Made by a program: the position numbers and the translations under genes
Part shown: positions 27,501-47,125 of the stretch, in pieces
Position numbering within the stretch: position 1 is the stretch's first letter
How the letters are laid out: each line of letters begins with the position of its first letter
NCBI GenBank assembly: GCA_016936075.1
Contig: JAFGPS010000189.1
Location: 1 to 47,125 of the forward strand
Length of the DNA stretch: 47,125 bases
Direction of reading: 5' to 3'
Origin: Sedimentisphaerales bacterium
GTDB taxonomy: Bacteria > Planctomycetota > Phycisphaerae > Sedimentisphaerales > Anaerobacaceae
Notes under the pieces: model-generated
What the model saw: only the letters and a program-made list of their open reading frames with translations
What the model was told of the DNA's origin: nothing
Database searches by the model: none

Positions 27501-30500
27501 AGCTTTCGGTCCGTTTTCTTTAGGATTCAATTTTAATTTCTACGGCAATGTTTATAACAGATTCTATATCCAGCCATGTGGAGTTATTACTTTTGACTCT
27601 GAAGTTCTTGATTATAGCAACAGGACTATTCCAAATCCTGATATATACAACAATATGATAGCATGGTTCTGGACACTTCATTATTTGGATGCGGATTCAA
27701 AAATATATTATAAAAACTTCAATGGCTATACGGTTGTTCAATTTGTTGATTACGATGTTCAGTATAGTGATGGAATGGTTAATGCCGAAGTGATTATATA
27801 CGAATCCGGAAAAATCATTATTCAGTACAAGGATTTCTCCGATGATGCTTCTATATACCAACATACGATAGGTATAGAAAACGCGGACGGCACGGATGGT
27901 TTACAAGTATCTTATAACAGATATTATCTTCATGAAGAACTTGCTATAGAAATTTCATTTGGTCCGCCATATGAGCCTTTTGCGGAAGCCGGAGCTAATC
28001 AGTACATAAGAACGTTAGAACAGGTCACGCTTGATGGCTCAGCAAGTTTTGACCGTGACCCATTAGAAGTATTAACATATCAATGGACGCAAATCGAAGG
28101 TCCTGTTGTTGCGTTAAGTGATTCAACCGCGATTCATCCGACCTTCTTACCTAATGCTGACGGTGCATACAAGTTCCAACTGGTAGTAAGTAATTCTGGC
28201 AAGACAAGTTCTCCGGATTATGTAACAGTATTTGTCGGTAATGAAACTCCTATAGCCGATGCCGGTCCGGACATGGTCGTCAATATTCCGTGCACAGTCA
28301 CTCTTGACGGCACATTTTCTTATGACTATGACCTTAACGATGTTTTAACCTACACCTGGTTCCAGACCGAAGGACCTACAGTTTCTCTCCAATATCCCGG
28401 TACTGCTAATCCTTCATTTTATTGTGACCAGGAAGGTATTTATAAGTTTACGCTAATTGTCAACGACGGTCTCGATACCAGCGAACAGGATACGATGGAA
28501 ATAAAAACCGCATCAGTTTCAGCAAATCAGCAGATTATAGACTTTGGTTACGAAATAAGCGATTATTTCTATTATCCGGCACTCAGCGGCGACAAGTTGG
28601 TATATTGCTACGGCACAGAGAGCGATTATACATGGGATATATATTATGACAACCTGACAACAGGTACTCTGTATTCGTTTGCGGCAGGTGGAGTTGATAC
28701 CCAGCCGAAGATAGATGGTGACATAGTAGTCTGGTTCGGCGGCATGAACTGGAACGAACCGTGGTCTAACGAGCCTCGTAATTCGAGTGTAATCGCCAGG
28801 AACCTTGTCACAGGTGTACAAAAAACAATAAAAGGTTACAGTATGTCCTCGTCTTGCAGTCACCCGGCCATTTCCGATAAGAAGGTTGTCTGGATCGAAC
28901 ACCATAATCTTGATACTGCACCTATCGGCAGCAATAGCGCTGAAAACTGGTGGAACACTACATATAGTATCTGCGGCGCCGATGTCGGCAATCTGAATAG
29001 TCCGAGCTATTTCACAATCGCTCCAAATGTCGGTACAAGGGACCCGTATTCAGTCCAGAACTTTGCCGGCGATTTCGATGACGTTATAGATATTGACGGG
29101 GATATAGTTGTCTATGAAGCCAACGGCGATATTTACGGCGCCGATATTTCCGATATTGACAATATCAAAGTCTTTACAATCTTCTCAGGTCCATCGCGGC
29201 AATACGATCCTGCTATATCTGGTAATATAGTAGTCTGGACCGACCAGCTTCAAGACCTTGGCGACATTTGCGGTGCGGACATATCAGATATGAATAATAT
29301 TCGCTGCTTCTCTCTTGTCCGAGCAGCTGGTATTCAGCAGCAGCCGGACATTGATGGCCGCTTTATGGTTTATGTCGACGGTGATACTGAATGCGGCGAT
29401 ATCAAAGCCAGCTTCATATCAGGTCAATGTGCAATAGATATTCCATTGACTGGCTCACTATATGGTTCCGGCCCGGTCATAGACGGCACAGTGATTGTAT
29501 GGCAGACAAGCACACATGAACAGCTCGAATCGCTTTCACTTGAGTTCTTATATTCGACAATCGATGGCCCGATAGAAAATACAACTACAGGCAAAAAATA
29601 CGATTATATCCAGCATGCAATCGATGACAGCAACGATGGTGATACTATAATTGTCGCTCCCGGCCTGTATTGCGAAAACATAGATACGCATGGCAAGAAT
29701 CTGATAATCAGTTCAACAGATCCAAACGATCCTGCAATCGTCGAAAGTACAGTTCTTACCGCAATGAATAATGATTATGCGGCGGTGACTTATTCCGATG
29801 GTCAGGATGTGAATTGTGTTCTTGAAGGCTTTACAATCACAGGTTCTGAAATAGGAATATATTGCGAGGAATTTTCATCACCGACAATCTCCATGTGCGA
29901 TATTTCCGGCAACTCTCAGTACGGCATATATCTGTATCGAGGCTGTGAGCCGCTTATTTCCGAGTGTACTATAATGAACAACAGCGATAGCGGCATCAAG
30001 ATGAGAACGCCCAATGAAACTATCATGTATTACAATATGCCTGTAATAACTAACTGTGTCATCTCCGGCAACGGCATGTTCGGCATCTCAGGAGGCAAGC
30101 CGACAATTATCAATTGTACAATCGCAGACAATACGATTTGCGGCTTATACAATTTAGAAGCTGCTGTAACTAATTCGATAATCTACTTTAACGGTGACGG
30201 CTCTTTATTTGGTCAGATAATGGGTGATCAGAGTACAATTACTTATTGTGATATCCAGGGCACATGGCTTGGAGCGGGCAATATTGATTCAGACCCATTG
30301 TTTGCCGATAGCTTAAATGGCGATTACCATTTGAAGTCAGAAGCAGGGCGATGGGACGCAATTAGTATGACCTGGGTTCAGGATAGTTCGAGTAGTCCAT
30401 GTATTGACGCAGGCGATCCGGGTAGTTTCATAGGACTGGAGCCGTCTCCGAACGGCTTTGTAATAAACATGGGAGCCTACGGCGGCACAGATGTTGCCAG

Positions 30501-30513
30501 TATGTCGCAATAG
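24559..30513 (+). CDS. Giant secreted protein with beta-helix, PKD and beta-propeller modules
   Basis: A 1984-residue protein with a signal peptide (MRKSLILSMIVLFFAV...LLAAV). Modules in order: a right-handed parallel beta-helix (about 25-370) opening YNTIQEAIDDCNDGD; PKD domains 1 and 2 (373-555) marked by (I/V)ADAG, LDGSGS and WTQISGP; a 195-residue beta-rich domain opening YGYSWIDSD (555-750); PKD 3 and 4 (753-935); a second YGYSWIDSD domain (938-1133); PKD 5 and 6 (1135-1318); a TolB/WD-like propeller with repeats such as PKIDGDIVVW, PAISGNIVVW and VIDGTVIVW (1320-1670); and a second beta-helix (1675-1970) opening YDYIQHAIDDSNDGD. A large surface or extracellular adhesin or polysaccharide-binding protein is likely. 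No catalytic residues are clear. AAGGAAAG precedes the ATG. Confidence 0.88.
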   Translation: MRKSLILSMIVLFFAVTPLLAAVRLVPSEYNTIQEAIDDCNDGDMVIASPGTYVENINFLGKKITVSGTNPEDWDTVESTIINGNNTGSVVTFVNGETNDSVLKGFTITGGYGSLYEEFSGDLLWGAGIFCINSSPFISNNIITENHSLADIENDLASYGGGIGCYNCNAIISNNIIKDNSAAAGGGVFNYYGGTVIANNIISDNSAYIGGGVILLGGNLINNTITNNDADIAGGGEAGNVYALFEEGYYDSLIMNNIICNAKSGGGIYYLLYNGMSYVNSADLCRYNNVWGNQPQNYINLYDGSSAGMAGKFGNISQNPQFIDDYHIGKSSPCYDKGDPDYAPYFWQRDIDGEYLVMDNFIDIGADEVTGNARPIADAGDTQHFYTYVSNVMLDGSGSFDPDGSGTLSYHWEQISGLNVVLSDPNIAEPNFTPPVEGAYEFELTVYDGVYYSHPDTVMIIVGNRAPVANAGIDQFCQAGDQVRLDGSGSYDLDEGDVLSYSWTQISGPTIEFSDSNSAYLYITPVVIGEYVFQLVVNDGGVSSLPDTVKVTCKIGSAPDAYGYSWIDSDNPYGPAYHWQDIQGSRNYFRNIQGGYGRVLGSITLEFDFDFYGTTYRKLYLQSSGLISFGPDPIYNYQPIPYPEGYDNMIAWMWSNVELTTNSKIYYKSYSDRMIIQFVNWSLSSGNGMLNAQVILYKSGKILIQYKDISINDSFSSYSIGIENSNGTIGTEVVFGESGYLHDELAIEFSTGSGPYEPVAHAGPDQQHKVAELITLDGSASNDRDPNYVLTYQWSQVSGPSVTLSAPTSAITTFMPSSEGEYIFQLVVNDGTYSSYPDEVEVFIGNQTPIADAGDDKAAEPGQQVTLSGSASYDPDSSDTIASYSWTQISGPLGILSNANSQNASFTPSIIGQYVFQLVVSDGIATSQPDTVTVFCTYASLPDDYGYSWIDSDSAAGPIYNWIDIQDTGTQLTGILNSYEEAFGPFSLGFNFNFYGNVYNRFYIQPCGVITFDSEVLDYSNRTIPNPDIYNNMIAWFWTLHYLDADSKIYYKNFNGYTVVQFVDYDVQYSDGMVNAEVIIYESGKIIIQYKDFSDDASIYQHTIGIENADGTDGLQVSYNRYYLHEELAIEISFGPPYEPFAEAGANQYIRTLEQVTLDGSASFDRDPLEVLTYQWTQIEGPVVALSDSTAIHPTFLPNADGAYKFQLVVSNSGKTSSPDYVTVFVGNETPIADAGPDMVVNIPCTVTLDGTFSYDYDLNDVLTYTWFQTEGPTVSLQYPGTANPSFYCDQEGIYKFTLIVNDGLDTSEQDTMEIKTASVSANQQIIDFGYEISDYFYYPALSGDKLVYCYGTESDYTWDIYYDNLTTGTLYSFAAGGVDTQPKIDGDIVVWFGGMNWNEPWSNEPRNSSVIARNLVTGVQKTIKGYSMSSSCSHPAISDKKVVWIEHHNLDTAPIGSNSAENWWNTTYSICGADVGNLNSPSYFTIAPNVGTRDPYSVQNFAGDFDDVIDIDGDIVVYEANGDIYGADISDIDNIKVFTIFSGPSRQYDPAISGNIVVWTDQLQDLGDICGADISDMNNIRCFSLVRAAGIQQQPDIDGRFMVYVDGDTECGDIKASFISGQCAIDIPLTGSLYGSGPVIDGTVIVWQTSTHEQLESLSLEFLYSTIDGPIENTTTGKKYDYIQHAIDDSNDGDTIIVAPGLYCENIDTHGKNLIISSTDPNDPAIVESTVLTAMNNDYAAVTYSDGQDVNCVLEGFTITGSEIGIYCEEFSSPTISMCDISGNSQYGIYLYRGCEPLISECTIMNNSDSGIKMRTPNETIMYYNMPVITNCVISGNGMFGISGGKPTIINCTIADNTICGLYNLEAAVTNSIIYFNGDGSLFGQIMGDQSTITYCDIQGTWLGAGNIDSDPLFADSLNGDYHLKSEAGRWDAISMTWVQDSSSSPCIDAGDPGSFIGLEPSPNGFVINMGAYGGTDVASMSQ

Positions 30514-34087: not shown

Positions 34088-37000
34088 TTAGCTGTTGTTT
34101 TCGGATTCCCAGATGATTTGGCAGCCGGGAAATGTCTCATTAAGATTCATGTAACCTTCTAAAGTAATATCAGAATTATTAAGGAAAATCTCATTTAAGT
34201 TTTTTAAAGGTTTCAGATATTCTAATCCTTTGTCTGTAATTCCAGTAGATTCGAGGCTTATCGATTCTAAATTCTCTAATCCCTGGATATGTTCAAGGCC
34301 TGCGTCTGTGATTTTTGTACCACCAATCCATAATTGCACCAGGTTTGTTAATTCCTTAAGATGTTCGAGGCCTTTATCAGAAATCTGAGTATTTGACAGA
34401 TAAAGCATATTAATTTTTTTCAATCCTTTCAAATATTCCATACTTTTATCTGTTATATTCGTTTTGTTAAGAATTAATACCTCCATGTTTGAGAGTCCTG
34501 CCAGATATTTCAAACCATCGTCACTGATTTGAGTATTTCCGAGATAGAGCCTTTTCACTTTGTCCATTCCCTGCAAATGTGCAAGACCATCATCGGTTAT
34601 CTGGGTGCCGCTAAGAACGAAAAATTCAAGCTCTTTCAATATCCCGTATTGTTTAAGTTTCATAACTCCATTGTCAGTAATTTGTGCATCATCGAGCCGA
34701 AGAGATTTTAATTTGGTCAAGCCCTTCATATGGTCCAACGACTTATCAGTAAATTGATTATTGATCCATAACCCAAGGAATTCCAGATTTGTCAGGTCTT
34801 TCAGATATACAAGGCCCTCATCACTAACATCGCTACGTACAAGAATAAGTGATTCAAGGCTTTTGATATCTTTCAATTGTTCCATTGACTCATCAGTAAA
34901 ATTCTCGACTTCCTGAATTCTTAGACTCTTGAGATTAGGTAACCATTTCAGGTGCTTTATCCCTTCTTCGCCACCTGTCCATTCAGTCTGATACTTTGGA
35001 CCATGAAGTGTAACTTCAGTGTACTTTTGGCCATTTTCTGAAGTTTTCACAACTACCTCTCCGCCTAATCTTTTTATTTCCGTTTCAGCTATATTTTGTT
35101 GACGTTTGTCTATTTCCTCTTGTGTTACAGGCTTGTCTGTATTCTCAATTTTTTCGTTTAGTTCTCCCATGCCAAATCCTTCTGCCCGGACAATATGCTC
35201 GCTGTCAAAGAGAATCATCCATGGCTGTGCCCGCACACTCCAGTTATTCAAAACTTTTTGAGATTCACCTGTGATACAACCGGATGTAAATGGTATATCA
35301 TATTCTCCAATCCAATCGTTAAGCTCTTTATCCGTGACATCAGAACTTTGAACCAGAAGAACCAGTACATTCTTTTCGGTCAGCTCTTTCTGCCGTTTGG
35401 CAAGTTCGGTGACTAAATTTCTTGACGGCCTCTGTTCCATGTCCCAGAAACATATCAATATTCGTTTGCCTTTAGCTTGCTCCGGAGAAAAATCAATCTC
35501 GATATTTTCAAAATTCGGAAAAGATTTGGTCACCAAAGGAGCTGGCGGTATTGGAACAAGTCTGCCCTGAGAGATTATTTTTGAAAGAGCTATTTTAATA
35601 TTCTTGTCTCCTGCATTAGCACCCGAAAAGCCAACAAGAGGTTCTGTCCCTTCTTTTTCTACCTGGACCTGGAGATTAATCCATCCTGGAGATAAACCTC
35701 CAAGTACAAACTCTCCTTTAGTATTTGTATATGTTTCCAGCATAGAAGGTTGGCCACTCCCATAAGCATAAATCCTGATATTGGATATCGGCTGATCAAA
35801 TTGGTCAACTACAATACCTGAAACGGAAAGATTCGCAACTTCTAAAACCAAAGGCTCCAAATCTAAACGGTCATTCACCGCTTCACCTGTATTTGCCATG
35901 ATGATTCGATCTCCAAATCCATCCGCTTTTGCCTGAACAGAATATCTAAATCCATTAGGCAAAGCTCTAATTTCAAAACTACCGTCTGAATTAATTTTCG
36001 TTGACTCTCTTTTGCTAATACCACTCTCAGATGCCCAGAATATAAGGGTCATATCCGCATTCTGAATTCCAATACCATTAATATCAACCACCTTACTCGA
36101 AATAATAACTCCAGGTATCAATGTAATTTCATAATTATCGGTTTTATCATCAAATTCAACCGCAGCGGCGAGATTCCTGTCCTTCTGCCTGGCAAAGATA
36201 TATATGTTTTCTGGAAATATAGGAAAAGTCATCGTTCTTGTCCCTGAGCTTACAACTCTTCTAAACTGAAATTTTCCTTCATTGTCTGTAATAAACTCTT
36301 CTCCGGGAAATGGCATAGTTGAGATAACAGTATCTTTGACAGGCAGGCCATTTACATCCTTTACTATACCTTTAATAATACGTACTGAAGGTTCACTGGT
36401 TGTCTGTAATACTTGTCCGACCGTTTTATCATCATAATAAGAACTATTTATCACTTTCATACCTTCTTCAAGATCAATTCCTTCAGCCTGAATTTTTCCG
36501 TTTTTATCTGTCAGTATAAGCCATGGCAGACCACGAACTCCCCAATTAAACTTAACTTTATCGAAATCACTTGTAATCCGGCCTGAAATAAATGGTATCT
36601 TATATTCATCGAGCCAATTTTTCAGTTCATCAACTGTAACTTCCGAACTGTGAATCAATAAAACCTCGATATTCTTTTCGTTTAGCTCATCTGTTCGTTT
36701 GGCAAGTTCGGTAACTGAATTTCTCGACGGCTTCTGTTCCATGTCCCAGAAACATATAAATATTCGTTTGCCTTTAGCTTGCTCCGGAGAAAAATCAATC
36801 TCGATATTTTCAAATTTCGGAATGGACTTATTAATTAAAGATTTGCTTACTAAAGGAGAAGGTTGTTTTGGTATGGTACGACTTGCAATTGGATCACCTC
36901 CAAGAACAATCGTGACGTTTTTTGCTCCTCCTTCTGTATTGACATAACCATATAATCGCTCCTGCCCAGTTTTAGTTGCCTGCAGCTGTAACTTTCCTTT

Positions 37001-38923
37001 TGCGGCTATAAGCTCGAACTTGCCCTCTTTATCAGAATAAACTTGTGCAAAATCAGGTTGATTGTCACCTGAGCTGACTATTCTCGCATTAACAACCGGC
37101 TTGCCGTCAATATCCACTACAATGCCGGAGACGGTTAGATTTGCCGAAAACAAAGTCACTTGCCCTGCATCAAGATGATTGTTGACGGTATCCTGAAAAT
37201 CAAGGCGTTTATTCGTTACGGTATATCCCTCAGCTCTTGCGCGAATAGTATAATCATGTCCGGCGGGAATCGCCCCGAACTCGAAATTTCCATTTTCATC
37301 CGCTTCTTCTTTTTCATATTTTGTTACTGAATAGCTCCAGTCAGATGTTCTTAAATTTGGACTTACACTTGCATGAGGAATACCCTTACCTTCTGAATCT
37401 GCTACTTTTCCTGTTATGGTCACTCCGGGCTGAAGTTTCAAATCGAGAGTTTGGCTTTTTTCTGTAACATCAACAATAACAGCCAGATTACGCTCATTAT
37501 GACGTGCGACAAGCCAGAAATCCGCACCTCCTCCGGGCCAGAGACGTTCATCCTGAATAATCTCATACCTGCCTTCTGAATCCGTAGTTATTTCTTCTTC
37601 AGCGGTTGGAAGCATTATAAGTTTCGCTCCCTCGACAGGCTTACCATCCGGATCATATACAATACCTTTGACCTTTGGAGGCTTTTTTAATAACCAGTCT
37701 ATTTTTTTGGTAGAACCATCTTCAATAAAAAGAGCATTGAAAGTATAACGCACTTCAGATGTATAATCTTTATTGACCGTTACATTTTGATACCCTTTCG
37801 GCATCAGACGAATACAACTTATCCCTTTGCTGTCACTGAGACCTGAAAACCATAATTCATGCTGCACATCAAGTACCGAGACACTGGCTCCTTCGATTGG
37901 TTCACCTGTCTCTGAATCTTTAACAAGTACTTCCAACAATCCCCCTTTTTGTAGTTCCAGTTTGATATCCTTTTCAGTTTGACCGTCTTTGAGGTCAACA
38001 TAAACTGGTTCTGCTACCCAATCCGCGAGTTTTTCTCTCGATGTATTCAGCGCAAGAAAATAACTGCCGGCAGAAAGTTCCCTGATACTGAATGTTCCAT
38101 CTTCTCCGGAAATTATTGTATCCTGACCAAAAACCAATTGATTGCGGCCATGTTTAATTTTGAATTTTATTCCGGATACCGGTTTGCCTGTGCTTTTATC
38201 GACTACGATGCCATCTATCACTGATTCCGGAGGTTGAACTAATCGAATATTTTCCTGTCCCGGCGAAAATTGGAGCTTATCACTGTATAACTCTAATTTA
38301 TTAATATTATTAGTATTAACCATAGCTCTCGCTGTTTTTTGGACAACAAATTCTACTGTAGCGTTTGCGGGTAAGTTATTAAAAGAAAATCTTCCTATTT
38401 CATCAGTTTTTGTATTTAGTATATTGGGTGTTATATAAGTACCCAAAGTGTGAATATTTTCTTTTGTATTTTCGATTTTCAATCGTATAATACCGACATT
38501 AGCATTAGAAACAGGCTGTCCTTTTTCATCAGTGACAATGCCCGACAATTTTTTAACTGGATTAAGCCTGAACTCAACTTCTTTATCACTTCCCATATAC
38601 CAATCTGAACAATCCAGTGCCAGACCTTCTTTTTCGACTACTATATATCCGTATGAACTATTCTCATCTCCTGTTTTCCTGACAAAAGAAAATTCACCAG
38701 CCTCGTTTGTTTTTGTTTCCCCGATAACTGATAAATCATCGGGAAACCTGGTTCGTGTTTCTTTTTCACTATACAATATTGCTTGTGCGTGAGCGGCTGG
38801 CTTTCCCAGGGCGTCAACTACTTTTCCTTTAAATGTAAACTTATCCTCATGTTGAGCAATTGAAAGATTATTAAAAGAGGCGATAAAAATTGCATATACT
38901 AAAATTATTTTTTTAATATTCAT
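34088..38923 (-). CDS. Secreted protein: Ig-like repeats, two redox-dead thioredoxin domains, LRR tail
   Basis: A 1611-residue protein. Start 38923 has GGGAG 8 bases upstream and a signal peptide (MNIKKIILVYAIFIASF). It has two halves of carboxypeptidase-regulatory/CnaB-like repeats (GxVVDxxGKPVxxA pattern), each followed by a TlpA/thioredoxin-like domain, about 700-830 and 1130-1270. At the position of CxxC they read EQKPSRN (near 729) and EQRPSRN (near 1164), while the cis-proline strand GLPWLILTDK is kept. From about 1328 to 1608 come leucine-rich repeats of the planctomycete type (TQITDDGLAHLQ). It is likely a periplasmic or surface protein for binding. It is the last gene of the array; the stop codon is at 34088-34090. 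Confidence 0.87.
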   Translation of the reverse strand: MNIKKIILVYAIFIASFNNLSIAQHEDKFTFKGKVVDALGKPAAHAQAILYSEKETRTRFPDDLSVIGETKTNEAGEFSFVRKTGDENSSYGYIVVEKEGLALDCSDWYMGSDKEVEFRLNPVKKLSGIVTDEKGQPVSNANVGIIRLKIENTKENIHTLGTYITPNILNTKTDEIGRFSFNNLPANATVEFVVQKTARAMVNTNNINKLELYSDKLQFSPGQENIRLVQPPESVIDGIVVDKSTGKPVSGIKFKIKHGRNQLVFGQDTIISGEDGTFSIRELSAGSYFLALNTSREKLADWVAEPVYVDLKDGQTEKDIKLELQKGGLLEVLVKDSETGEPIEGASVSVLDVQHELWFSGLSDSKGISCIRLMPKGYQNVTVNKDYTSEVRYTFNALFIEDGSTKKIDWLLKKPPKVKGIVYDPDGKPVEGAKLIMLPTAEEEITTDSEGRYEIIQDERLWPGGGADFWLVARHNERNLAVIVDVTEKSQTLDLKLQPGVTITGKVADSEGKGIPHASVSPNLRTSDWSYSVTKYEKEEADENGNFEFGAIPAGHDYTIRARAEGYTVTNKRLDFQDTVNNHLDAGQVTLFSANLTVSGIVVDIDGKPVVNARIVSSGDNQPDFAQVYSDKEGKFELIAAKGKLQLQATKTGQERLYGYVNTEGGAKNVTIVLGGDPIASRTIPKQPSPLVSKSLINKSIPKFENIEIDFSPEQAKGKRIFICFWDMEQKPSRNSVTELAKRTDELNEKNIEVLLIHSSEVTVDELKNWLDEYKIPFISGRITSDFDKVKFNWGVRGLPWLILTDKNGKIQAEGIDLEEGMKVINSSYYDDKTVGQVLQTTSEPSVRIIKGIVKDVNGLPVKDTVISTMPFPGEEFITDNEGKFQFRRVVSSGTRTMTFPIFPENIYIFARQKDRNLAAAVEFDDKTDNYEITLIPGVIISSKVVDINGIGIQNADMTLIFWASESGISKRESTKINSDGSFEIRALPNGFRYSVQAKADGFGDRIIMANTGEAVNDRLDLEPLVLEVANLSVSGIVVDQFDQPISNIRIYAYGSGQPSMLETYTNTKGEFVLGGLSPGWINLQVQVEKEGTEPLVGFSGANAGDKNIKIALSKIISQGRLVPIPPAPLVTKSFPNFENIEIDFSPEQAKGKRILICFWDMEQRPSRNLVTELAKRQKELTEKNVLVLLVQSSDVTDKELNDWIGEYDIPFTSGCITGESQKVLNNWSVRAQPWMILFDSEHIVRAEGFGMGELNEKIENTDKPVTQEEIDKRQQNIAETEIKRLGGEVVVKTSENGQKYTEVTLHGPKYQTEWTGGEEGIKHLKWLPNLKSLRIQEVENFTDESMEQLKDIKSLESLILVRSDVSDEGLVYLKDLTNLEFLGLWINNQFTDKSLDHMKGLTKLKSLRLDDAQITDNGVMKLKQYGILKELEFFVLSGTQITDDGLAHLQGMDKVKRLYLGNTQISDDGLKYLAGLSNMEVLILNKTNITDKSMEYLKGLKKINMLYLSNTQISDKGLEHLKELTNLVQLWIGGTKITDAGLEHIQGLENLESISLESTGITDKGLEYLKPLKNLNEIFLNNSDITLEGYMNLNETFPGCQIIWESENNS
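35399..36821. repeat. Two 121-bp near-identical segments inside one gene
   Basis: Bases 35399-35519 and 36701-36821, both coding for the Q-[RK]-P-S-R-N part of the two thioredoxin-like domains, are of equal length and differ at only about six positions by eye, while the flanking parts of the two domains are much more diverged. This suggests recent gene conversion between the two domain copies. Confidence 0.75.
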
Positions 38924-38942
38924 AATTGTTCTCCCGAAATCA

Positions 38943-40181
38943 TTATTTCTCAATTTTATTATCCAGCTCGTTTATTGAAAATCCTTCAGTTTGGACAATA
39001 TGTTCTTTATCAGTCAAAATCAACCACGGCAAAGCCTTTACGTCCCAGTTGAAGAGTGTTTGTTCTTGATTCTCTTTAATTATGCCGATTGGAAAATCCA
39101 TATTATTTTCCTTAGCCCAGTTATCAAGATATTCCTGTTCAATCTTTGAAGCTTGAACTGCGATAATCTCAATATCTTTTGACTTAAGCTCTTGTGCCTT
39201 TTGACTTAGTTCCAAGATGCAATTCCTTGACGGCCGTTGTTCCATATCGAAAAAGCAGACAAGGAGCGACTTGTCCTGGATTGAAGTACGAGCAGGATCA
39301 ATATTGATACCATCGAAGTTCGGCAACGGTTCGCCCGGAAGCAAATACCCAGGCTTTTTGATTTTTACCTGTACCTGTGTCTTTTGTCCAATTTGCAGTG
39401 ACACATTTTTGAATGTTATCCGGTAATCATAAGGCCTTGACTGGAATTCAAGATGATCGATATTTTGTATATTGAGATTCTTGAATCGGTGGATATATCT
39501 GCTTATACCTGCTCCCGTACCTCCGCCGCTTTTTTGTGATTTATGCAGAATGTCTTTTTTGTCGTAAGCTACGAGTCTTGTAGCATCGTCTAAAATAGTT
39601 TGTGTAATTTCCGCCACTACGTCCGAACCTTTTTGCTCCGGACACCGCATTATTACTCCATCGTTACTGCTAAAAAAACTGTCATCAGGAGCTGCAGGAT
39701 ACCAGAACGACCAGTTTTCAACAACATTCCACTGGCCGATTGCCAATCCTAATTCTATATCCGCCTGTTTCTGACCCTTAGCGAAAATTAAAGTAAAAAA
39801 TCTCAATTCATCGTTTTCAAAACCTTTCCCTTTGTTATTGACCGGGTGTACTGTAAGATTATTACTCAATTGTGCAACTGCTTTACAGGTATAATCATTA
39901 CTTTTATTGAAGCGAATAACAAACCAATATGAATCTGAGACTGATGTACGCCCTTGAGACATATCGGGAGACTCGTCCATAGCCGTACCATCGGGTCTCC
40001 ACCATTGATAATTTCCGTCCTTGAACTGTTCCAAATCCCGAATACTATAGTTCCTTAGTCCAACTAACTCTACGGTAATTCCTTCTGGTAATGTCGCAAT
40101 AACTTTTTCCTCGGGTTCTTCTATAGCTCCGTAAGTTGAAATACATAAAAAGGAAATCATAATCAAAATGCAGTTTTTCAT
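38943..40181 (-). CDS. Secreted protein: unique N-terminal domain plus redox-dead thioredoxin-like domain
   Basis: A 412-residue protein with a signal peptide (MKNCILIMISFLCISTYG) and GGAGG 9 bases before the ATG. The first 280 residues are a domain I do not recognise: it opens EKVIATLPEGITVELVGL and contains WWRPDGTAMD and FWYPAAPDDSFF stretches, possibly beta-rich. Residues about 285-412 are the array's thioredoxin-like module: CFFDMEQRPSRNC (QRPS in place of CxxC, near 311-316), IAVQASKIEQEYLDNW, FNWDVKALPWLILTD and EGFSINEL. It lies 19 bases before the next array gene and 19 bases after the previous one. Confidence 0.8.
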   Translation of the reverse strand: MKNCILIMISFLCISTYGAIEEPEEKVIATLPEGITVELVGLRNYSIRDLEQFKDGNYQWWRPDGTAMDESPDMSQGRTSVSDSYWFVIRFNKSNDYTCKAVAQLSNNLTVHPVNNKGKGFENDELRFFTLIFAKGQKQADIELGLAIGQWNVVENWSFWYPAAPDDSFFSSNDGVIMRCPEQKGSDVVAEITQTILDDATRLVAYDKKDILHKSQKSGGGTGAGISRYIHRFKNLNIQNIDHLEFQSRPYDYRITFKNVSLQIGQKTQVQVKIKKPGYLLPGEPLPNFDGINIDPARTSIQDKSLLVCFFDMEQRPSRNCILELSQKAQELKSKDIEIIAVQASKIEQEYLDNWAKENNMDFPIGIIKENQEQTLFNWDVKALPWLILTDKEHIVQTEGFSINELDNKIEK

Positions 40182-40200
40182 TTGTATTAACCTCCATTAT

Positions 40201-41781
40201 TTAATTCAGTTTTTTGTCAAGTTCGAGCAGGCTGAATCCTTCGTTAGTTACAATGTGTTTTTTATCAGTTAGAATCAGCCACGGCAAAGCCTTGACGCCC
40301 CAGTTGAATTTTGTTTGCTCTTCATTCTCCTTAATAATTCCCACTTGAAAGTCTATACTATTTTCTTTGAGCCACTTGTCGAGATATTCCTGCTCAATCT
40401 TTGATGCTTGGATTGCAACTATAACTAAATCTTTTTCCTTGAGTTCTTTTGCTTTTTTACTTAATTCTAAAATACAGTTTCTTGACGGTCGTTGCTCGTA
40501 ATCAAAAAAACAAATCAAAACACTTTTGTCTTGAATAGTTTCTGGTTTAAATTCAGCAAGGAAATTTTTTATGTCAGGCAAAGGCTTACCTGATAATGAA
40601 ACAAACTGCGGCTGAATTGGTTGGTTGGAACCTGGTTCCGAGAGTATAATTTTTACATCTTTTGCCCCGCCTTCGGTTTGAATAACACCATTTAGCGTTC
40701 TCGTATCAAATAGATCGGCTCCAATTGTTATTGTTCCTGCACATAAGTTTTCAAGGGTGAATTTGCCTTCCTTATTTGTTGTAGTTGATAGATTTGGCTG
40801 ACCTTTACCTGAAGTGTGAATAAAAGCATTTGCTATTGGTTTACCGTAATAATCAACGACAAGACCGGAAACAGACATATTTGCAGGCTTAAGAACTATT
40901 GGATCAAAATCAAAAATCTCGCCAGGATTCTGACTTGTTTGTATATCGACCGAGTCACTTCCGAAACGTTCAGCTTTTCCGTAAACTGAATACTTGAAAC
41001 CGCCAGGTAAAGCTTTGATTTGAAAATGTCCATGTTTATCGACTTCCACAGTTTCGTTATTCTTGAAACCTAAATCACAAGTCCAGATAATCAGTTCAAT
41101 TTTTAAATCTGGAATTCTATTATCGTTTGAATCAACAACTTTACCTGAAAGAATGATACCTTTTGACAGTTTAATATCGAGATTCTCTTTTTTGCCAAGA
41201 AGTTCAACTGCAGCGGCGAGATTATGCTCTCTGTCTCTTGCAATAATATAGGGAGTATCTTTAAAAGTAAATCCCAGTGAATGCTCCATCATCGTAAATA
41301 TGCCGTTACTGTCTGTTGCAGTCTGGTCTGCAGAAGGCGGATTTACAATAATCAATGCTCCCGAGACAGGTTCGCCATTTTCATTGCGTATTACCCCTGA
41401 AATTGTTCCATAAGCTTCGAGAGAAAATTCTATAAGTTTTGTTTTTCCTTCCTCAACTGTCACCTCTTTTTTAAGCATGACTTGTTTATAATAATTATTT
41501 TTGTAAACTTTGATTATTGTGTATTTTCCCGGTTCCAGATGGGCCTGAGCTATTCCATCGTTATTAGTGATAATCTTTTTAATAGCCCCAAGTTTGTTTG
41601 TTGAATAAAATTCGATATTTACATTATCAAGGGATTCTTTAGTTTTAGGATCAATTACGAGTACTTCTAAAGTTCCACCTTTGCTTAAATCGGTATTTGC
41701 ATTCTCTTTTGTTTCCTGTGCAGAGACAAAATTGAGCAAGCACATTGTAAAGATCACAAATAATATAAATATTTTATTCAT
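40201..41781 (-). CDS. Secreted protein: Ig-like repeats plus redox-dead thioredoxin-like domain
   Basis: A 526-residue protein with a signal peptide (MNKIFILFVIFTMCLLNF) and an AGGAAA-like ribosome site. Residues about 35-395 hold four carboxypeptidase-regulatory/CnaB-like repeats (for example GTISGVIRNENGEPVSGA and GKVVDSNDNRIPDL). The thioredoxin-like module occupies about 400-525: CFFDYEQRPSRNC near 423-435 instead of CxxC, then the KALPWLILTDKKHIV strand. It starts 15 bases after the previous array gene stop. A role in binding or signalling in the envelope is inferred; redox catalysis through CxxC looks impossible. Confidence 0.83.
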   Translation of the reverse strand: MNKIFILFVIFTMCLLNFVSAQETKENANTDLSKGGTLEVLVIDPKTKESLDNVNIEFYSTNKLGAIKKIITNNDGIAQAHLEPGKYTIIKVYKNNYYKQVMLKKEVTVEEGKTKLIEFSLEAYGTISGVIRNENGEPVSGALIIVNPPSADQTATDSNGIFTMMEHSLGFTFKDTPYIIARDREHNLAAAVELLGKKENLDIKLSKGIILSGKVVDSNDNRIPDLKIELIIWTCDLGFKNNETVEVDKHGHFQIKALPGGFKYSVYGKAERFGSDSVDIQTSQNPGEIFDFDPIVLKPANMSVSGLVVDYYGKPIANAFIHTSGKGQPNLSTTTNKEGKFTLENLCAGTITIGADLFDTRTLNGVIQTEGGAKDVKIILSEPGSNQPIQPQFVSLSGKPLPDIKNFLAEFKPETIQDKSVLICFFDYEQRPSRNCILELSKKAKELKEKDLVIVAIQASKIEQEYLDKWLKENSIDFQVGIIKENEEQTKFNWGVKALPWLILTDKKHIVTNEGFSLLELDKKLN

Positions 41782-41796
41782 TTGAATTTTCCTATT

Positions 41797-43185
41797 TTAT
41801 TGTTTCACTTTCTCTTCCAATTCATTGACCGAAAATCCTTCGGCCTGAACGACATGTTCTTTATCAGTCAAAATCAACCACGGCAAAGCTTTTACGCCCC
41901 AGTTGAATTTTATTTGCTCTGGATTGTCTTTAATCATACCAAGGGGAAAGTCGATGCTATTTTCTTTGAGCCATTTATCGAGATATTCCTGCTCAATTGT
42001 TGAAGCTTGAATCGCAATAACTTCAATATCTTTTTTCTTTAGCTCTTTTGCCTTTTTACTTAGTTCAATAATTCCATTCCTTGACGGCCGTTGTTCTATA
42101 TCGAAAAAACAAACCAATACAATTTTATTAGTGGAATCCGGCATTGACTCTATTTTGAAATTTTGGAGTTCCGGAAGGGTTTTACCAACAAGAGATGCAG
42201 GTTGTTCAGTTTTATTGGTTGATAAATTATCTTCAACATTGTAAATCTCGTCTCCTTCTTGTACATCATGTACAAAAGCTCCAATTTTTTCGAAGTCCGG
42301 ATTCAAAACTACTTTTGTTCGTTTATTATGTGTTTTCAGATAAGTATAATCAAAAGCTGCATTTTGGTAATCTCTCTTGTAATTGTGTTTAGCTTCCATT
42401 GGAACCCATACATCATTTATTTTTTCAAACCTATCGACTTCATAAGAAAAGGATATCGCGGTCATTACGCCAGCTCTGTTTTCTCTTAAAAGAGTTTCGC
42501 CATTCCAGACCAGATCTTTTCCACCTTTTGTAACTTCCGCTTTAGCTATATTATATCCGTGCGCAGGATCTATCCAGATTGCATATTTACCATATGGCGA
42601 TAGAGCATCAATCGCATAACATTTAAAGTTTCCGACCTGTTCCATATTTTTTCGCAATTCAAGCTTAGTAGCCTTCTGTAAAACAGTACCGACAGGCAGG
42701 TCATCACCCTGATATATACCCAAAAGAGGTGCGTCATCATATGAAACTGCGAGTTGCGGCCCTTTCATATCGTCATTTTTTGTAACAAATAGCTTTCCCT
42801 TTTCAGTAGTTTTGCCCCTTCTGTATTCATAAGAGGTATTACCATCCCAAATATAATATTTATAATACGTGGCTTCTTTTGAATCTATATTGACATCAAG
42901 ATTGTCTAAATCTGACCACGTTGAAAATCTAAAATCAACTCTATCGCCATCATATCGCAATTCACTCTTTGCCTTGAAAAACCTTTTATCTCCGTTATTA
43001 GATGAACCGGTTTCTTCTGACGATTCACTAAAGACAAGTATTTTTGTCATTTTAGATTGATTCTCACGATACTTATCAAGTAATCCAGATGCGCTGGGAT
43101 TTTTTAATATAAAATCTTCTGCTCCCAAAACAGGGAAACAAAAAATCAATAACATAGAAACAATTATTATTCTATTGTTTGACAT
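41797..43185 (-). CDS. Secreted protein: LolA-like N-terminal domain plus redox-dead thioredoxin-like domain
   Basis: A 462-residue protein. The start at 43185 has AGGAG 8 bases upstream, lies inside the end of the previous array gene (overlap of 14 bases), and opens a signal peptide (MSNNRIIIVSMLLIFCFPVLG). The N-terminal 290 residues look like a LolA-type lipoprotein-carrier fold: repeated beta strands such as KSELRYDGDRVDFRF, YYIWDGNTSYEYRRG and AIWIDPAHGYNIAKAEV; this is a resemblance, not proven. Residues 335-460 are the array module with CFFDIEQRPSRNG and VKALPWLILTDKEHVV. Unlike most copies the residue after RN is Gly, not Cys. Confidence 0.8.
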   Translation of the reverse strand: MSNNRIIIVSMLLIFCFPVLGAEDFILKNPSASGLLDKYRENQSKMTKILVFSESSEETGSSNNGDKRFFKAKSELRYDGDRVDFRFSTWSDLDNLDVNIDSKEATYYKYYIWDGNTSYEYRRGKTTEKGKLFVTKNDDMKGPQLAVSYDDAPLLGIYQGDDLPVGTVLQKATKLELRKNMEQVGNFKCYAIDALSPYGKYAIWIDPAHGYNIAKAEVTKGGKDLVWNGETLLRENRAGVMTAISFSYEVDRFEKINDVWVPMEAKHNYKRDYQNAAFDYTYLKTHNKRTKVVLNPDFEKIGAFVHDVQEGDEIYNVEDNLSTNKTEQPASLVGKTLPELQNFKIESMPDSTNKIVLVCFFDIEQRPSRNGIIELSKKAKELKKKDIEVIAIQASTIEQEYLDKWLKENSIDFPLGMIKDNPEQIKFNWGVKALPWLILTDKEHVVQAEGFSVNELEEKVKQ

Positions 43186-45640
43186 TTTTAAACTCCTTGA
43201 TTTTGCCTTCCAGCTCATTTATTGAAAATCCTTCAGCTTTTACGATATGTTCCTTATCGGTTAAAATCAACCATGGCAAAGCCTTTACGCCCCAGTTGAA
43301 TTTTGTTTGCTTTTCGTTGTCCTTAATCATCCCTACTGGGAAAGAAATATTATTTTCTTGAAGCCAACTATCGAGATATTCCTGCTCAATCATCGAAGCC
43401 TGAACCGCGATAATCTCAATATCTTTTGCCTTAAGCTCTTGTGCCTTTTTAGTGAGTTCTAAAATGCAATTCCTTGATGGCCGCTGTTCAATATCAAAGA
43501 AACATACAAGGATATTCTTGCCTTCACTATCGTTGGGTGCTATTCCAAAATCGGAAATATCCGGAACTATTTCGTCTTTCAACGATTTATACGGAAGAAC
43601 GTGTTCATGTACAAGGCCTTTGCCCAATACTATTTTGATACCTTTGTCACCTGCATATGCTTTAGTCGTACCTCTGCCCTTCGGATCGCTTGAGAAATTT
43701 GCAGCAACAAGCAGGGGACCTTCTCGGACACCTCTTATTTCAAATCTTCCTTGCTCGTCTGTTGCCGTGTTTTTATTAGGCTGCACAACACCTTCACGTC
43801 CGCTTAAAAATATCATAGAATGCGGCTGAGGTACACCATTAGCATCTTCTACTGTTCCGGATATAGACATATTTAGCGGTTGCAGTTCTATAACTCCCAA
43901 GTCTAATATTCTGTCCGGCTCTTCCTCAATTTTATGGATTTGGTATGTTCTTGATGCAAATCCGGTTGACTGTATATTTATCCTGTATTCAAGTTTATCA
44001 GGAAGAGGTGGAATTGCTTTTAATTCGAATATTCCTTCGACATCAGTTAGTACTTCTTCACCAAAATCGGATGTTGCATTTAAATTATCGAAATAGAAAC
44101 TTAAATCTACACGGGCAGCAGGTATGCCGGAGCCATTTGGATCAGCTATTTTCCCCTTTATTGTCAGAGCGGGACTTAATGACAATTGAACAGGTTTATT
44201 AAAATTATATGTATGAACAATAGTTGCAAGAGAATGTGGGATATCCCTTGCCATCATATACAGGCCTTCACTTGCCCATCTTTGTTCATACCATGCAGTA
44301 TAATTCCCTTTTTTGTTTGTGTATATTTGATCACCGGCAGGTTGCATTACGACCAGAATATCTTCTGCCGGTTTGCCATCAGTATTAGAAACTGTGCCAG
44401 TTATAGGAGGTATTTTATCCAATTTAATATCTACATGTGCTACTTCACCTTCCTTTATTGTAAAAGGTTCTTTTATTTGCGAGTATTCGTAGTGTTCTCC
44501 ACTGGCGTATGGCTGGTATTCTCCCGGTAATAATCGTTGCCTGCTGATACCTTGTTGGTTCGTTACAGAACTTATATAGAGGTTTTCTGTAGATGATGTA
44601 ACATTCATACCGGATAAAGTCTGTTTGGTTTCATATTCTGTGATGGAATATTCGACAATCCCTCCCTTTTTTACTTTTATCTCTATATTATCATTGGCTT
44701 TATTTTTTGAAACTTCTACCTTTACAGGTTCAGCAATCCAATCGGCTGTTTCTGTTTTATTTGTAAATAACTCTATTATATGATTGCCTTCGGGCAAACC
44801 TTCGCATGAAAATGATCCATCCGAATTTGAAACAACCGTCACCGGAAGGTAGCGATTTAAAATATCTTCATGATCCCTGCCAGTTTTTATTAATAGCTTT
44901 ACGCCGCCTGCAGGTGTGTTGGTTCCTTCTTCAACAACACGACCATTTATTTTTCCTTCCTGCGGCAAGGCAAGTTTTATATCAGAACGCCATACTTCGA
45001 AACCACATGCGTTTTGAATGTGGGTTGTAAATTTATAAGTGCAATTGAAGTATGGCGCCTTGATATGAAAATCAGAACTTACATCTTGTGAAAAATAATC
45101 AAAGGAGAAAATCCCGTTTTCATCTGTTTTGGTGATAAACCATTCCTTAGGACCAAAAATCGGCCTTTGATGCAAACGAGACATATAACTCGTTTTAGGT
45201 ATAGCATGAACGGCTGCTCCGGGTACTGCGTTACCTTTATAATCTACAACTTTGCCTGTAAGGGTATTGGCTTTTTCCAGAACAAGAAGAAACTTGCCTT
45301 TACCTTTTGTGTTACCGCCATAGTTCAAGCCGTCCCAGGCATAAGCAAGCCCTTTTTTTCTGGCTACTATATAAGTATCATATTGAGAAGTTACATTTGC
45401 CTGCACCTCAAATATACCATCTCCGTCAGTTTTTACAAAAGGAGCAATCACTTTAGACATATATTCATCATTAATACGTTCTACTTCAATAATGGCGATT
45501 TCGGCATCTTCTACCGGCTTGGCCATATAGTCAACAACCTGTCCGGTAATTGGTAATTTTTGAATTTCCTGAGCACCTATGATGTCGTGAATATTAAAAA
45601 ATGATAAGATTAACAATAGTTTAATTATATTTGATTTCAT
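43172..45640 (-). CDS. Secreted protein: Ig-like repeats plus redox-dead thioredoxin-like domain
   Basis: An 822-residue protein. The ATG at 45640 comes one base after the stop of the previous array gene, and its GGAG site overlaps that gene's last codons, so translation is probably coupled. The signal peptide is MKSNIIKLLLILSFFNI. Residues about 30-680 hold around six carboxypeptidase-regulatory/CnaB-like repeats (GQVVDYMAKPVEDAEI, GKVVDYKGNAVPGAAV). The module with CFFDIEQRPSRNC (near 713-725) and GVKALPWLILTDKEHIV ends the protein. It is closely similar to the gene at the right edge, so the two probably arose by tandem duplication. Confidence 0.85.
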   Translation of the reverse strand: MKSNIIKLLLILSFFNIHDIIGAQEIQKLPITGQVVDYMAKPVEDAEIAIIEVERINDEYMSKVIAPFVKTDGDGIFEVQANVTSQYDTYIVARKKGLAYAWDGLNYGGNTKGKGKFLLVLEKANTLTGKVVDYKGNAVPGAAVHAIPKTSYMSRLHQRPIFGPKEWFITKTDENGIFSFDYFSQDVSSDFHIKAPYFNCTYKFTTHIQNACGFEVWRSDIKLALPQEGKINGRVVEEGTNTPAGGVKLLIKTGRDHEDILNRYLPVTVVSNSDGSFSCEGLPEGNHIIELFTNKTETADWIAEPVKVEVSKNKANDNIEIKVKKGGIVEYSITEYETKQTLSGMNVTSSTENLYISSVTNQQGISRQRLLPGEYQPYASGEHYEYSQIKEPFTIKEGEVAHVDIKLDKIPPITGTVSNTDGKPAEDILVVMQPAGDQIYTNKKGNYTAWYEQRWASEGLYMMARDIPHSLATIVHTYNFNKPVQLSLSPALTIKGKIADPNGSGIPAARVDLSFYFDNLNATSDFGEEVLTDVEGIFELKAIPPLPDKLEYRINIQSTGFASRTYQIHKIEEEPDRILDLGVIELQPLNMSISGTVEDANGVPQPHSMIFLSGREGVVQPNKNTATDEQGRFEIRGVREGPLLVAANFSSDPKGRGTTKAYAGDKGIKIVLGKGLVHEHVLPYKSLKDEIVPDISDFGIAPNDSEGKNILVCFFDIEQRPSRNCILELTKKAQELKAKDIEIIAVQASMIEQEYLDSWLQENNISFPVGMIKDNEKQTKFNWGVKALPWLILTDKEHIVKAEGFSINELEGKIKEFKNVKQ

Positions 45641-45641
45641 A

Positions 45642-47125
45642 TTAATCTCCGAGTTTAACGATTTGGTTATCAAGTTTGTTGATAGAAAATCCTTCCGCTT
45701 TTACGATATGTTTCTCATCAGTTAAAATAAGCCACGGCAGAGCTTTTACTCCCCAGTTGAATTTTGTTTGTTCTTTGCCTGTCCCGAGCGAAGTCGAGGG
45801 ATCGCTTTCAATCATTCCAACAGGGATAGAAATGTTATTTTTTTCAATCCATTCATCAAGCGTTTCCTGTTCGATTTTCGAGGTTTGAACAGCAATTATA
45901 GCTACATCTTTTTCCTTTAGTTCTTTTGCCTTTTTACTTAATTCTAAAATGCAATTCCTCGACGGCCGCTGTTCGTAATCAAAAAAGCAAATAAGTAAGA
46001 CTTTATCTTTTGTATCTTCAAGTTTTATACCAAGTTCAGAAATATCAGGCAGACATTGACCAAGTAGCGATTTCTGCGGCGCATGTACCAACCTTTGGCC
46101 TAATACAATTTTAATATCTTTATCGCCGCCATTAGCCGTAGTAAAACCCGCGCTGCTGGATTCGCTGTCGAAATTTGCCTGAAGCTGGATTTTATCTGCT
46201 GATACACCTTTAATAATAAATTTACCTTCTTTATCCGTTGCCGTACGTTTTTCAGGTTGTTCTGCTCCAACAAGGCCGTTAACAAATATAATAGCATGAG
46301 GCTCTGGTGTACCATCGGCGTTCACTACAAATCCGGATACAGATAAATCCGCAGGTTTAAGTTTAATTGTATCAACATCTACGGTTGTACCCGGCTCTCC
46401 ATCTATAGCGATTTCTTTATAATTTTTGGAAGCAAATCCAGTTGCATTCGTGGATTGCCAGAAGGAAAAATCTGCCTGTTTTAGTGGAATTGCATTGAAT
46501 TCAAATAAGCCCTTGGAATTTGTAAGTATCTCTGTACCTAATTTAGATAAACAGTATGAGAAAGAGATACCAACAGACATTCTTGCCGCGGGGATACCGT
46601 TTCCATTTGGATCAGTGATTTTACCTTTAACGGTAAGAGCGGGACTGAGTGACAATTTTACAGGTTCTTCTAATTTCATCGTGTGTAAAATTGCCGCCGT
46701 GGAATGTTGAGTATCTCTTGCAATGATATATACTCCATCATCAATGCTCCTTTCATCATAACATGCGGTAAATCGTCCTTCTTTATCAGTATATACATGG
46801 TCACCGAATGGATGAATCGTAATAAAAACATCTACTGCAGGATTGCCTGATTCATCAACTACTATGCCGCTGATTGTGGGGGACTTTGTTAATTCTATAT
46901 TGACTTTTGTAACTTCGCCGTCTTTAACTATCACAGGCTCATTGACCTGCCATGAAGTATAATCCTTTGTTCCTGCTGAAGCTCTATATTCCCCATGCAA
47001 AACACGCTGTCTTGCAATACCTTGCTTATTCGTAGTAGTAGTTGTAAAGCCGTTATCATTATATGTTGTGACAGACGCCTCTGATAGCAACTTTTTGGTA
47101 TTATAATCACGAACAGTATATTCAA
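45642..47125 (-). CDS. Secreted array protein, C-terminal part (runs off right edge)
   Basis: The frame is open from the right edge to a stop at 45642-45644, giving the last 493 residues or so. The visible part has carboxypeptidase-regulatory/CnaB-like repeats (GIVVDESGNPAVDVFI, GKITDPNGNGIPAARM) and ends in the thioredoxin-like module CFFDYEQRPSRNC, FNWGVKALPWLILTD, EGFSINKL. It aligns along its whole length with the 43172-45640 protein. Compared with the other copies it has eight extra residues around SDPSTSLGTG, encoded by a GC-rich repeat-like insert (45777-45803). The N-terminus and signal peptide lie beyond the window. Confidence 0.85.
   Translation of the reverse strand, partial: EYTVRDYNTKKLLSEASVTTYNDNGFTTTTTNKQGIARQRVLHGEYRASAGTKDYTSWQVNEPVIVKDGEVTKVNIELTKSPTISGIVVDESGNPAVDVFITIHPFGDHVYTDKEGRFTACYDERSIDDGVYIIARDTQHSTAAILHTMKLEEPVKLSLSPALTVKGKITDPNGNGIPAARMSVGISFSYCLSKLGTEILTNSKGLFEFNAIPLKQADFSFWQSTNATGFASKNYKEIAIDGEPGTTVDVDTIKLKPADLSVSGFVVNADGTPEPHAIIFVNGLVGAEQPEKRTATDKEGKFIIKGVSADKIQLQANFDSESSSAGFTTANGGDKDIKIVLGQRLVHAPQKSLLGQCLPDISELGIKLEDTKDKVLLICFFDYEQRPSRNCILELSKKAKELKEKDVAIIAVQTSKIEQETLDEWIEKNNISIPVGMIESDPSTSLGTGKEQTKFNWGVKALPWLILTDEKHIVKAEGFSINKLDNQIVKLGD
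45777..45803. repeat. Dispersed-repeat-like insert inside a coding gene
   Basis: A GC-rich 27-base segment containing the imperfect palindrome TCCCGAGCGAAGTCGAGGGA. On the minus strand it encodes DPSTSLGTG in frame, adding eight residues net relative to paralogues. The core resembles dispersed short repeats found in many bacterial genomes, as I recall. Only one copy is seen here. Confidence 0.6.

Follow-up and report, generated by a model that had tools for sequence, protein, structure and literature searches.

We describe a redox-dead thioredoxin-like module carried by a tandem array of genes in a 47,125-nucleotide contig of a Sedimentisphaerales bacterium (GenBank assembly GCA_016936075.1, contig JAFGPS010000189.1; below, the window means this whole stretch of DNA). 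We propose, at a probability of about 0.5, that it is a non-catalytic docking module common to exported proteins and to the outer ends of extracytoplasmic function (ECF) sigma factors. The dock itself may be a secreted-like protein that we call PA, an identification that we consider plausible but somewhat less likely than not to be right. Docking is the plainest account because the fold keeps its groove without the chemistry, stands at the end of unrelated exported-like proteins, has a secreted-like partner and is reused in sigma factors.

The window is the entire contig (C26) of a draft genome of 4.36 Mb in 217 contigs (89% complete), and its best named database matches are Sedimentisphaerales metagenome-assembled genomes. 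An earlier note, made from the letters and open reading frames (ORFs) of this DNA, had described at least six adjacent minus-strand genes with seven thioredoxin-like domains in which CxxC is replaced by EQ[RK]PSRN. We found exactly this: six minus-strand ORFs (34088-47123) hold seven modules of ~132 residues each, six with EQRPSRN and one with EQKPSRN, and CxxC is absent from all six proteins. The gaps between the listed ORFs are -11, +19, +15, -47 and -32 bases, so the genes abut or overlap, as had been noted. The cis-Pro strand is present in 7 of 7 modules, but the exact string ALPWLILTD, said to be kept in every copy, occurs in only 5 of 7; the deviating strands are the two in the 1621-residue protein. 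As for the parts joined to the module, the leucine-rich repeat (LRR) tail, the head without a family and the LolA-like head stood, the last borne out by a predicted LolA/LolB fold (41797-43218), whereas most of the supposed Ig-like repeats are CarboxypepD_reg domains. The array genes and their modules are as follows.

34088..38953, minus strand: 1621-residue protein with eight CarboxypepD_reg stretches, two modules and an LRR tail; last gene of the array
36446..36841, minus strand: module 1, EQKPSRN at 36719-36739, GLPWLILTD at 36506-36532
35144..35539, minus strand: module 2, EQRPSRN at 35417-35437, AQPWMILFD at 35204-35230
38943..40181, minus strand: 412-residue protein, head without a Pfam family, C-terminal module
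38949..39344, minus strand: module 3, EQRPSRN at 39222-39242
40201..41781, minus strand: 526-residue protein, CarboxypepD_reg repeats, C-terminal module
40204..40599, minus strand: module 4, EQRPSRN at 40477-40497
41797..43218, minus strand: 473-residue protein, LolA/LolB-like head, C-terminal module; mean predicted local distance difference test score (pLDDT) of the predicted structure 87.8
41803..42195, minus strand: module 5, EQRPSRN at 42076-42096
43172..45673, minus strand: 833-residue protein, CarboxypepD_reg repeats, C-terminal module
43196..43585, minus strand: module 6, EQRPSRN at 43469-43489
45642..47123, minus strand: protein of at least 493 residues, open at the contig end, CarboxypepD_reg repeats, C-terminal module
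45657..46070, minus strand: module 7, EQRPSRN at 45954-45974, in-frame repeat insert near 45783

Since the gene at 45642..47123 is open at the contig end, the array is cut on its 5′ side, and PA is therefore not visible for it.

Prediction gives the module a thioredoxin fold of the ResA/TlpA type, and alignment with the ResA sequence places Gln and Ser at the sites of the two CxxC cysteines. QRPSR is retained in 174 of 206 unique rows (four of those rows are non-module relatives); together with 43 copies in the window's genome, this means that the seven-copy pattern is not due to chance. Across 153 modules, conservation is 93-96% at every one of the positions Q, R, P, S and R, which rank among the most conserved columns of the domain, while mean residue identity is only 47-53% among 62 modules of three same-genus genomes. 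We thus agree with the earlier note that the motif is a kept signature and not a product of decay. When 39 full-length copies from 16 contigs of the window's genome were aligned, Cys30, Leu46, Pro106, Leu110 and Gly121 were invariant. The cis-Pro site holds Pro in all 39 of these rows and, at rounding, in all 153 modules; we infer from the fold that this Pro is cis. In a tree, 41 modules form one clade on a long stem, separate from five relatives with CxxC (four from this genome).

The earlier note had named two findings that would lessen the novelty of the module, and neither was made. No CxxC was seen in 158 modules, which leaves no free co-occurrence of QxPSRN with CxxC, and no membership of a known redoxin subfamily emerged: the only curated redoxin model matched was ResA, to which the three scanned window proteins score 24-28 bits, far below its cut-off of 170. 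The general Pfam model AhpC-TSA was matched, above its cut-off in 4 of the 6 window proteins. Other TlpA-like domains of this genome (in L110, L111, L114 and the second domain of L003) have neither CxxC nor QRPSR, so the loss of CxxC looks recurrent. Separately, three modules share a short in-frame repeat, CCCTCGACTTCGCTCGGG, which occupies the same position in each and adds PSTSLG[TA]G. Scanning 424,625 bases at ≤2 mismatches gave four sites (near 45783 in the window, within module 7; L002 15900; L006 4222; L223 11733), and the peptide also occurs in a same-genus module (L059).

The window shows a small part of this family. At E ≤ 1e-10, scoring 47 of the 68 first-look candidates gave 43 copies in the window's genome; of the 45 matches from a single-protein search, two covered just the head. 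The module is present in 39 of 89 genomes of the family and 57 of 161 genomes of the order (both at E ≤ 1e-10, with up to 47 and 26 candidates scored per genome, respectively) and in 5 of 392 genomes drawn evenly over the phylum (E ≤ 1e-15; at most 10 candidates scored), with 1 to 43 copies per genome. Simple gene calling revealed single loci with 8, 7 and 6 module genes in a row, and in genome G429 about 20 successive module genes extend over ~52 kilobases with two interruptions in the gene calls. An open frame of ~4,100 residues (L007 868-13167, contig C159) contains four modules and, by eye, LRR parts. Of 153 modules, 131 lie at the C terminus, with at most 15 residues after them, behind heads made of CarboxypepD_reg repeats, LRR, LolA-like or FG-GAP parts (the last in one database protein) or behind heads without a family. 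In a crude hydropathy test, a hydrophobic N terminus was found in 113 of the 132 module proteins whose 5′ end is available, compared with 45% of 676 other genes, and 7 of the 132 have a helix-like segment beyond residue 70; many of the module proteins are predicted to be exported.

PA is a protein of ~395 residues with an apparent signal peptide, a C-terminal EYG or SYG and, by eye, two DxNxNGxxxDE-like loops. It has no Pfam family (a GEVED match is slightly under its cut-off), and neither do any of the 120 relatives listed among the 932 found by search; its model (pLDDT 90.5) is mostly beta. PA usually lies just 5′ of the module genes, in arrays as well as single copies, and the sole full PA of the window's genome heads an array on C184. 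Among the 161 genomes of the order, PA was found at E ≤ 1e-20 in 42, of which 38 have the module, with one to four matches per PA genome; near-full PA (E ≤ 1e-100) occurs in 32, and all 32 have the module (Fisher p 2e-18 to 3e-18, uncorrected for relatedness). In many loci the adjacency means little, because those loci were chosen for the module. Loci newly picked from the PA list contained 22 near-full PA genes. A module gene lies no more than four genes away from 12 of them (three on contigs previously known to carry the module), 3 have none so near and 7 stand at a contig end.

A lectin-like gene often lies between PA and the module gene. Twelve such in-between genes were tested, giving LamG in nine, F5/8C in one (L202), a sub-cut-off F5/8C match in one (L126) and CarboxypepD_reg in one (L216). 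Directly 5′ of PA lies a polytopic protein with about seven transmembrane segments (7-TM), without a Pfam family in the two scanned. This neighbour was found at:

L061 5538-6302; L064, L073, L077, L082, L097, L119, L122, L127, L129, L209, L211: 7-TM neighbour of PA

In Anaerohalosphaera lusitana (genome G287, named by a 100% identical protein), each component of the unit is present once at the cut-offs used: a 7-TM protein, PA, a LamG protein that also has an F5/8C-like part, and the module protein. Another PA relative, a weak one, lies some kilobases further on.

In addition, five module proteins of the window's genome, encoded outside the window, start as ECF sigma factors. Sigma regions 2 and 4 are present in three of them and region 4 only in two, which are cut by contig ends; next come a predicted membrane helix, a CarboxypepD_reg or LolA-like part and, at the end, the module. 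The genome gave 12 matches to this sigma family (30 of 76 candidates scored), and all but one, on C67, are fused to or beside a module gene. In other genomes, a sigma gene lies between two module genes (G433) or two genes ahead of one (G427), and in G429 one strand carries, in this order, a sigma gene, a gene that looks LRR-like by eye, PA and the long array. The same genome encodes a protein that fuses a PA-like part with the module. In other genera, members of the sigma family carry PA-like parts at their end, clearly so in G463 and G466 and weakly in G464 and G471, or, by eye, LRR-like or LolA-like parts. On a tree, the linkage to sigma requires at least two changes, most simply two gains.

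Several further genes were observed around these loci. At several 7-TM/PA loci, a small protein resembling the PA C terminus is encoded ahead of the 7-TM gene. Ahead of PA on C184 (L002 2496-5910) lie genes for a Cys-rich 158-residue protein, a 441-residue protein that may have a membrane helix and a peptidase C39-DUF1573 protein; together they may serve in export or processing. A 1025-residue protein with a LolA-like head and no module (L082 15775-18852) has an ECF sigma gene from this sigma family as its neighbour, and 7-TM, PA and module genes follow downstream on the same strand. At L116 130-8674 (C175), ECF sigma-like genes are each paired with a gene for ~320-370 residues, four pairs in all, and a 494-residue PA-like protein follows. 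Within the window, 24559-30513 encodes a 1984-residue protein with PKD repeats and a right-handed beta helix.

We propose that the retained thioredoxin groove, formed by the QRPSR loop, the cis-Pro loop (LPW) and an EGF loop near the end, would bind a protein without a mixed disulphide. Many exported proteins, and the outer ends of some ECF sigma factors, would attach in this way to a common envelope partner, possibly PA or something assembled with PA, and binding at the outer end would control the tethered sigma factor. In single-copy genomes such as that of A. lusitana, PA, the lectin-like protein and a single module protein would make up the unit; multiplication of the module gene would have produced the arrays of the window's lineage. 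This agrees with the "binding, sensing or scaffold" function suggested in the earlier note, a suggestion that also suits the module's C-terminal position behind unrelated heads, its co-occurrence with PA and its fusion to sigma factors; that note did not see the number of copies across the genome, nor PA, nor the sigma factors. A more specific version, which we regard as a long shot, is an assembly-feedback switch in which exported surface proteins and tethered sigma factors compete through the module for the same docks. Empty docks would capture and release sigma, full docks would leave it idle, and new surface proteins would be made only when room exists.

Several observations weigh against docking. 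The proposal is built from sequence, predictions and inference, and binding by the module is itself inferred. As many as 22 of 153 modules are internal, for example ahead of LRR parts or further modules. The exact QRPSR is found in one of the five sigma-fused modules and QRLSR in another, and the motif is lost in three; because four of five depart from it, QRPSR is not needed in the fusions. The sigma family is broader than the module, many genomes having sigma-family loci without a link to it, and co-occurrence at the family level is weak (module in 16 of 27 genomes with sigma and 23 of 62 without, p 0.065). As for PA, 19 of 57 module genomes lack it at E ≤ 1e-20, three near-full PA genes have no module nearby despite available 3′ DNA (L122, L127 and L207), a fold comparison gave no close PDB match, and its 7-TM neighbour has no match in the window's own draft genome.

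Four other explanations rank after docking: small-ligand sensing, a targeting signal, new chemistry and a spacer, in that order. The QRPSR loop could be the binding site of a small ligand such as a polysaccharide fragment, and the module would act mainly as input to the ECF sigma factors, with the exported proteins as binding proteins of the same system. The five fusions and the adjacent sigma genes (11 of the 12 family matches), the lectin-like neighbours and the abundance of polysaccharide enzymes in the order, as given in excerpts of PMC11131199, are consistent with this. However, it is among the sigma fusions that the motif is mostly altered, whereas most other modules retain it, and most module genes of this genome have no adjacent gene of this sigma family; we consider sensing unlikely. 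Somewhat less probable still is that a secretion or surface-attachment machine recognises the module, as with the C-terminal domains of other systems, and may remove it. The C-terminal place on unrelated heads and the excess of up to 43 modules over one to four PA matches per PA genome recall the many-to-one logic described in the excerpted parts of PMC3237569. On the other hand, the module is predicted to be a full globular fold of 130 residues without a C-terminal helix and basic tail, the internal copies do not fit, and export of the whole protein is not expected for the sigma factors that also end in the module.

That the module is still an enzyme, using a near-constant strand Cys (LxCFF) or the Ser/Arg loop in place of CxxC, seems to us very unlikely. 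A Cys stands six residues before Gln in 190 of 206 rows and another six residues after it in 120, but the first aligns with ResA in the strand preceding the loop and the second is missing in 86 of 206 rows, so there is no constant cysteine pair. Nor does the loop, or the stretch immediately following it, hold a constant peroxidatic Cys of the peroxiredoxin type (120 of 206 in the best column). We give marginally less credence to a spacer, that is, a dead redoxin copied along with its genes and having no function of its own. The recurrent loss of CxxC in TlpA-like domains of this genome speaks for it, but free decay would not leave the motif positions among the domain's most conserved columns.

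Returning to docking, the parts of the proposed system each resemble something known. The predicted fold, the cis-Pro site and the Pro of the active-site loop are shared with ResA/TlpA (4nmu, 1st9), and the basic residue after the loop Pro with the CxxC relatives in the same genome; unlike ResA/TlpA, the module has Gln and Ser for both catalytic Cys and scores far under the curated ResA cut-off. Like LPXTG, PEP-CTERM and GlyGly-CTERM, as these are presented in the excerpts of PMC3237569, it is a common C-terminal domain on unrelated proteins, with many copies per genome and a co-occurring factor. It differs from them in being a folded domain of ~130 residues and not a short motif with a transmembrane helix and basic tail, and PA, apparently secreted and mostly beta, differs from sortase-type factors in that no protease or sortase match was found. 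As to the joint presence or absence of domain and factor, every near-full PA genome (32 of 32) has the module and 19 of 57 module genomes are without PA.

The sigma fusions resemble IutY, an ECF sigma factor fused to an anti-sigma factor (excerpts of PMC8999054), and planctomycete ECF sigma factors with WD40 repeats (excerpts of PMC8567305) in that a long extension comes after sigma regions 2 and 4; here it includes a predicted membrane helix. In contrast to both as excerpted, the outer end is a redox-dead module common to exported proteins, or a PA-like, LRR-like or LolA-like part. Two ECF sigma-CarboxypepD-redoxin proteins (P0312 and P0331) have the same domain order by Pfam, yet their redoxin retains CAPC or CGPC. 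CxxC-less thioredoxin folds, shared C-terminal domains and extended ECF sigma factors are thus each already known, and their union was not found in the literature or database listings searched. Sources label the domain and its partner family, PA, as redoxin, peroxiredoxin or hypothetical protein, labels that are misleading because CxxC is gone. The proposal can be tested because the single-copy unit exists in a cultured species, A. lusitana. If it is true, module arrays, PA, the lectin-like protein and ECF sigma factors would form a lineage-specific envelope system, in which the thioredoxin fold would have been turned from an enzyme into a connector.
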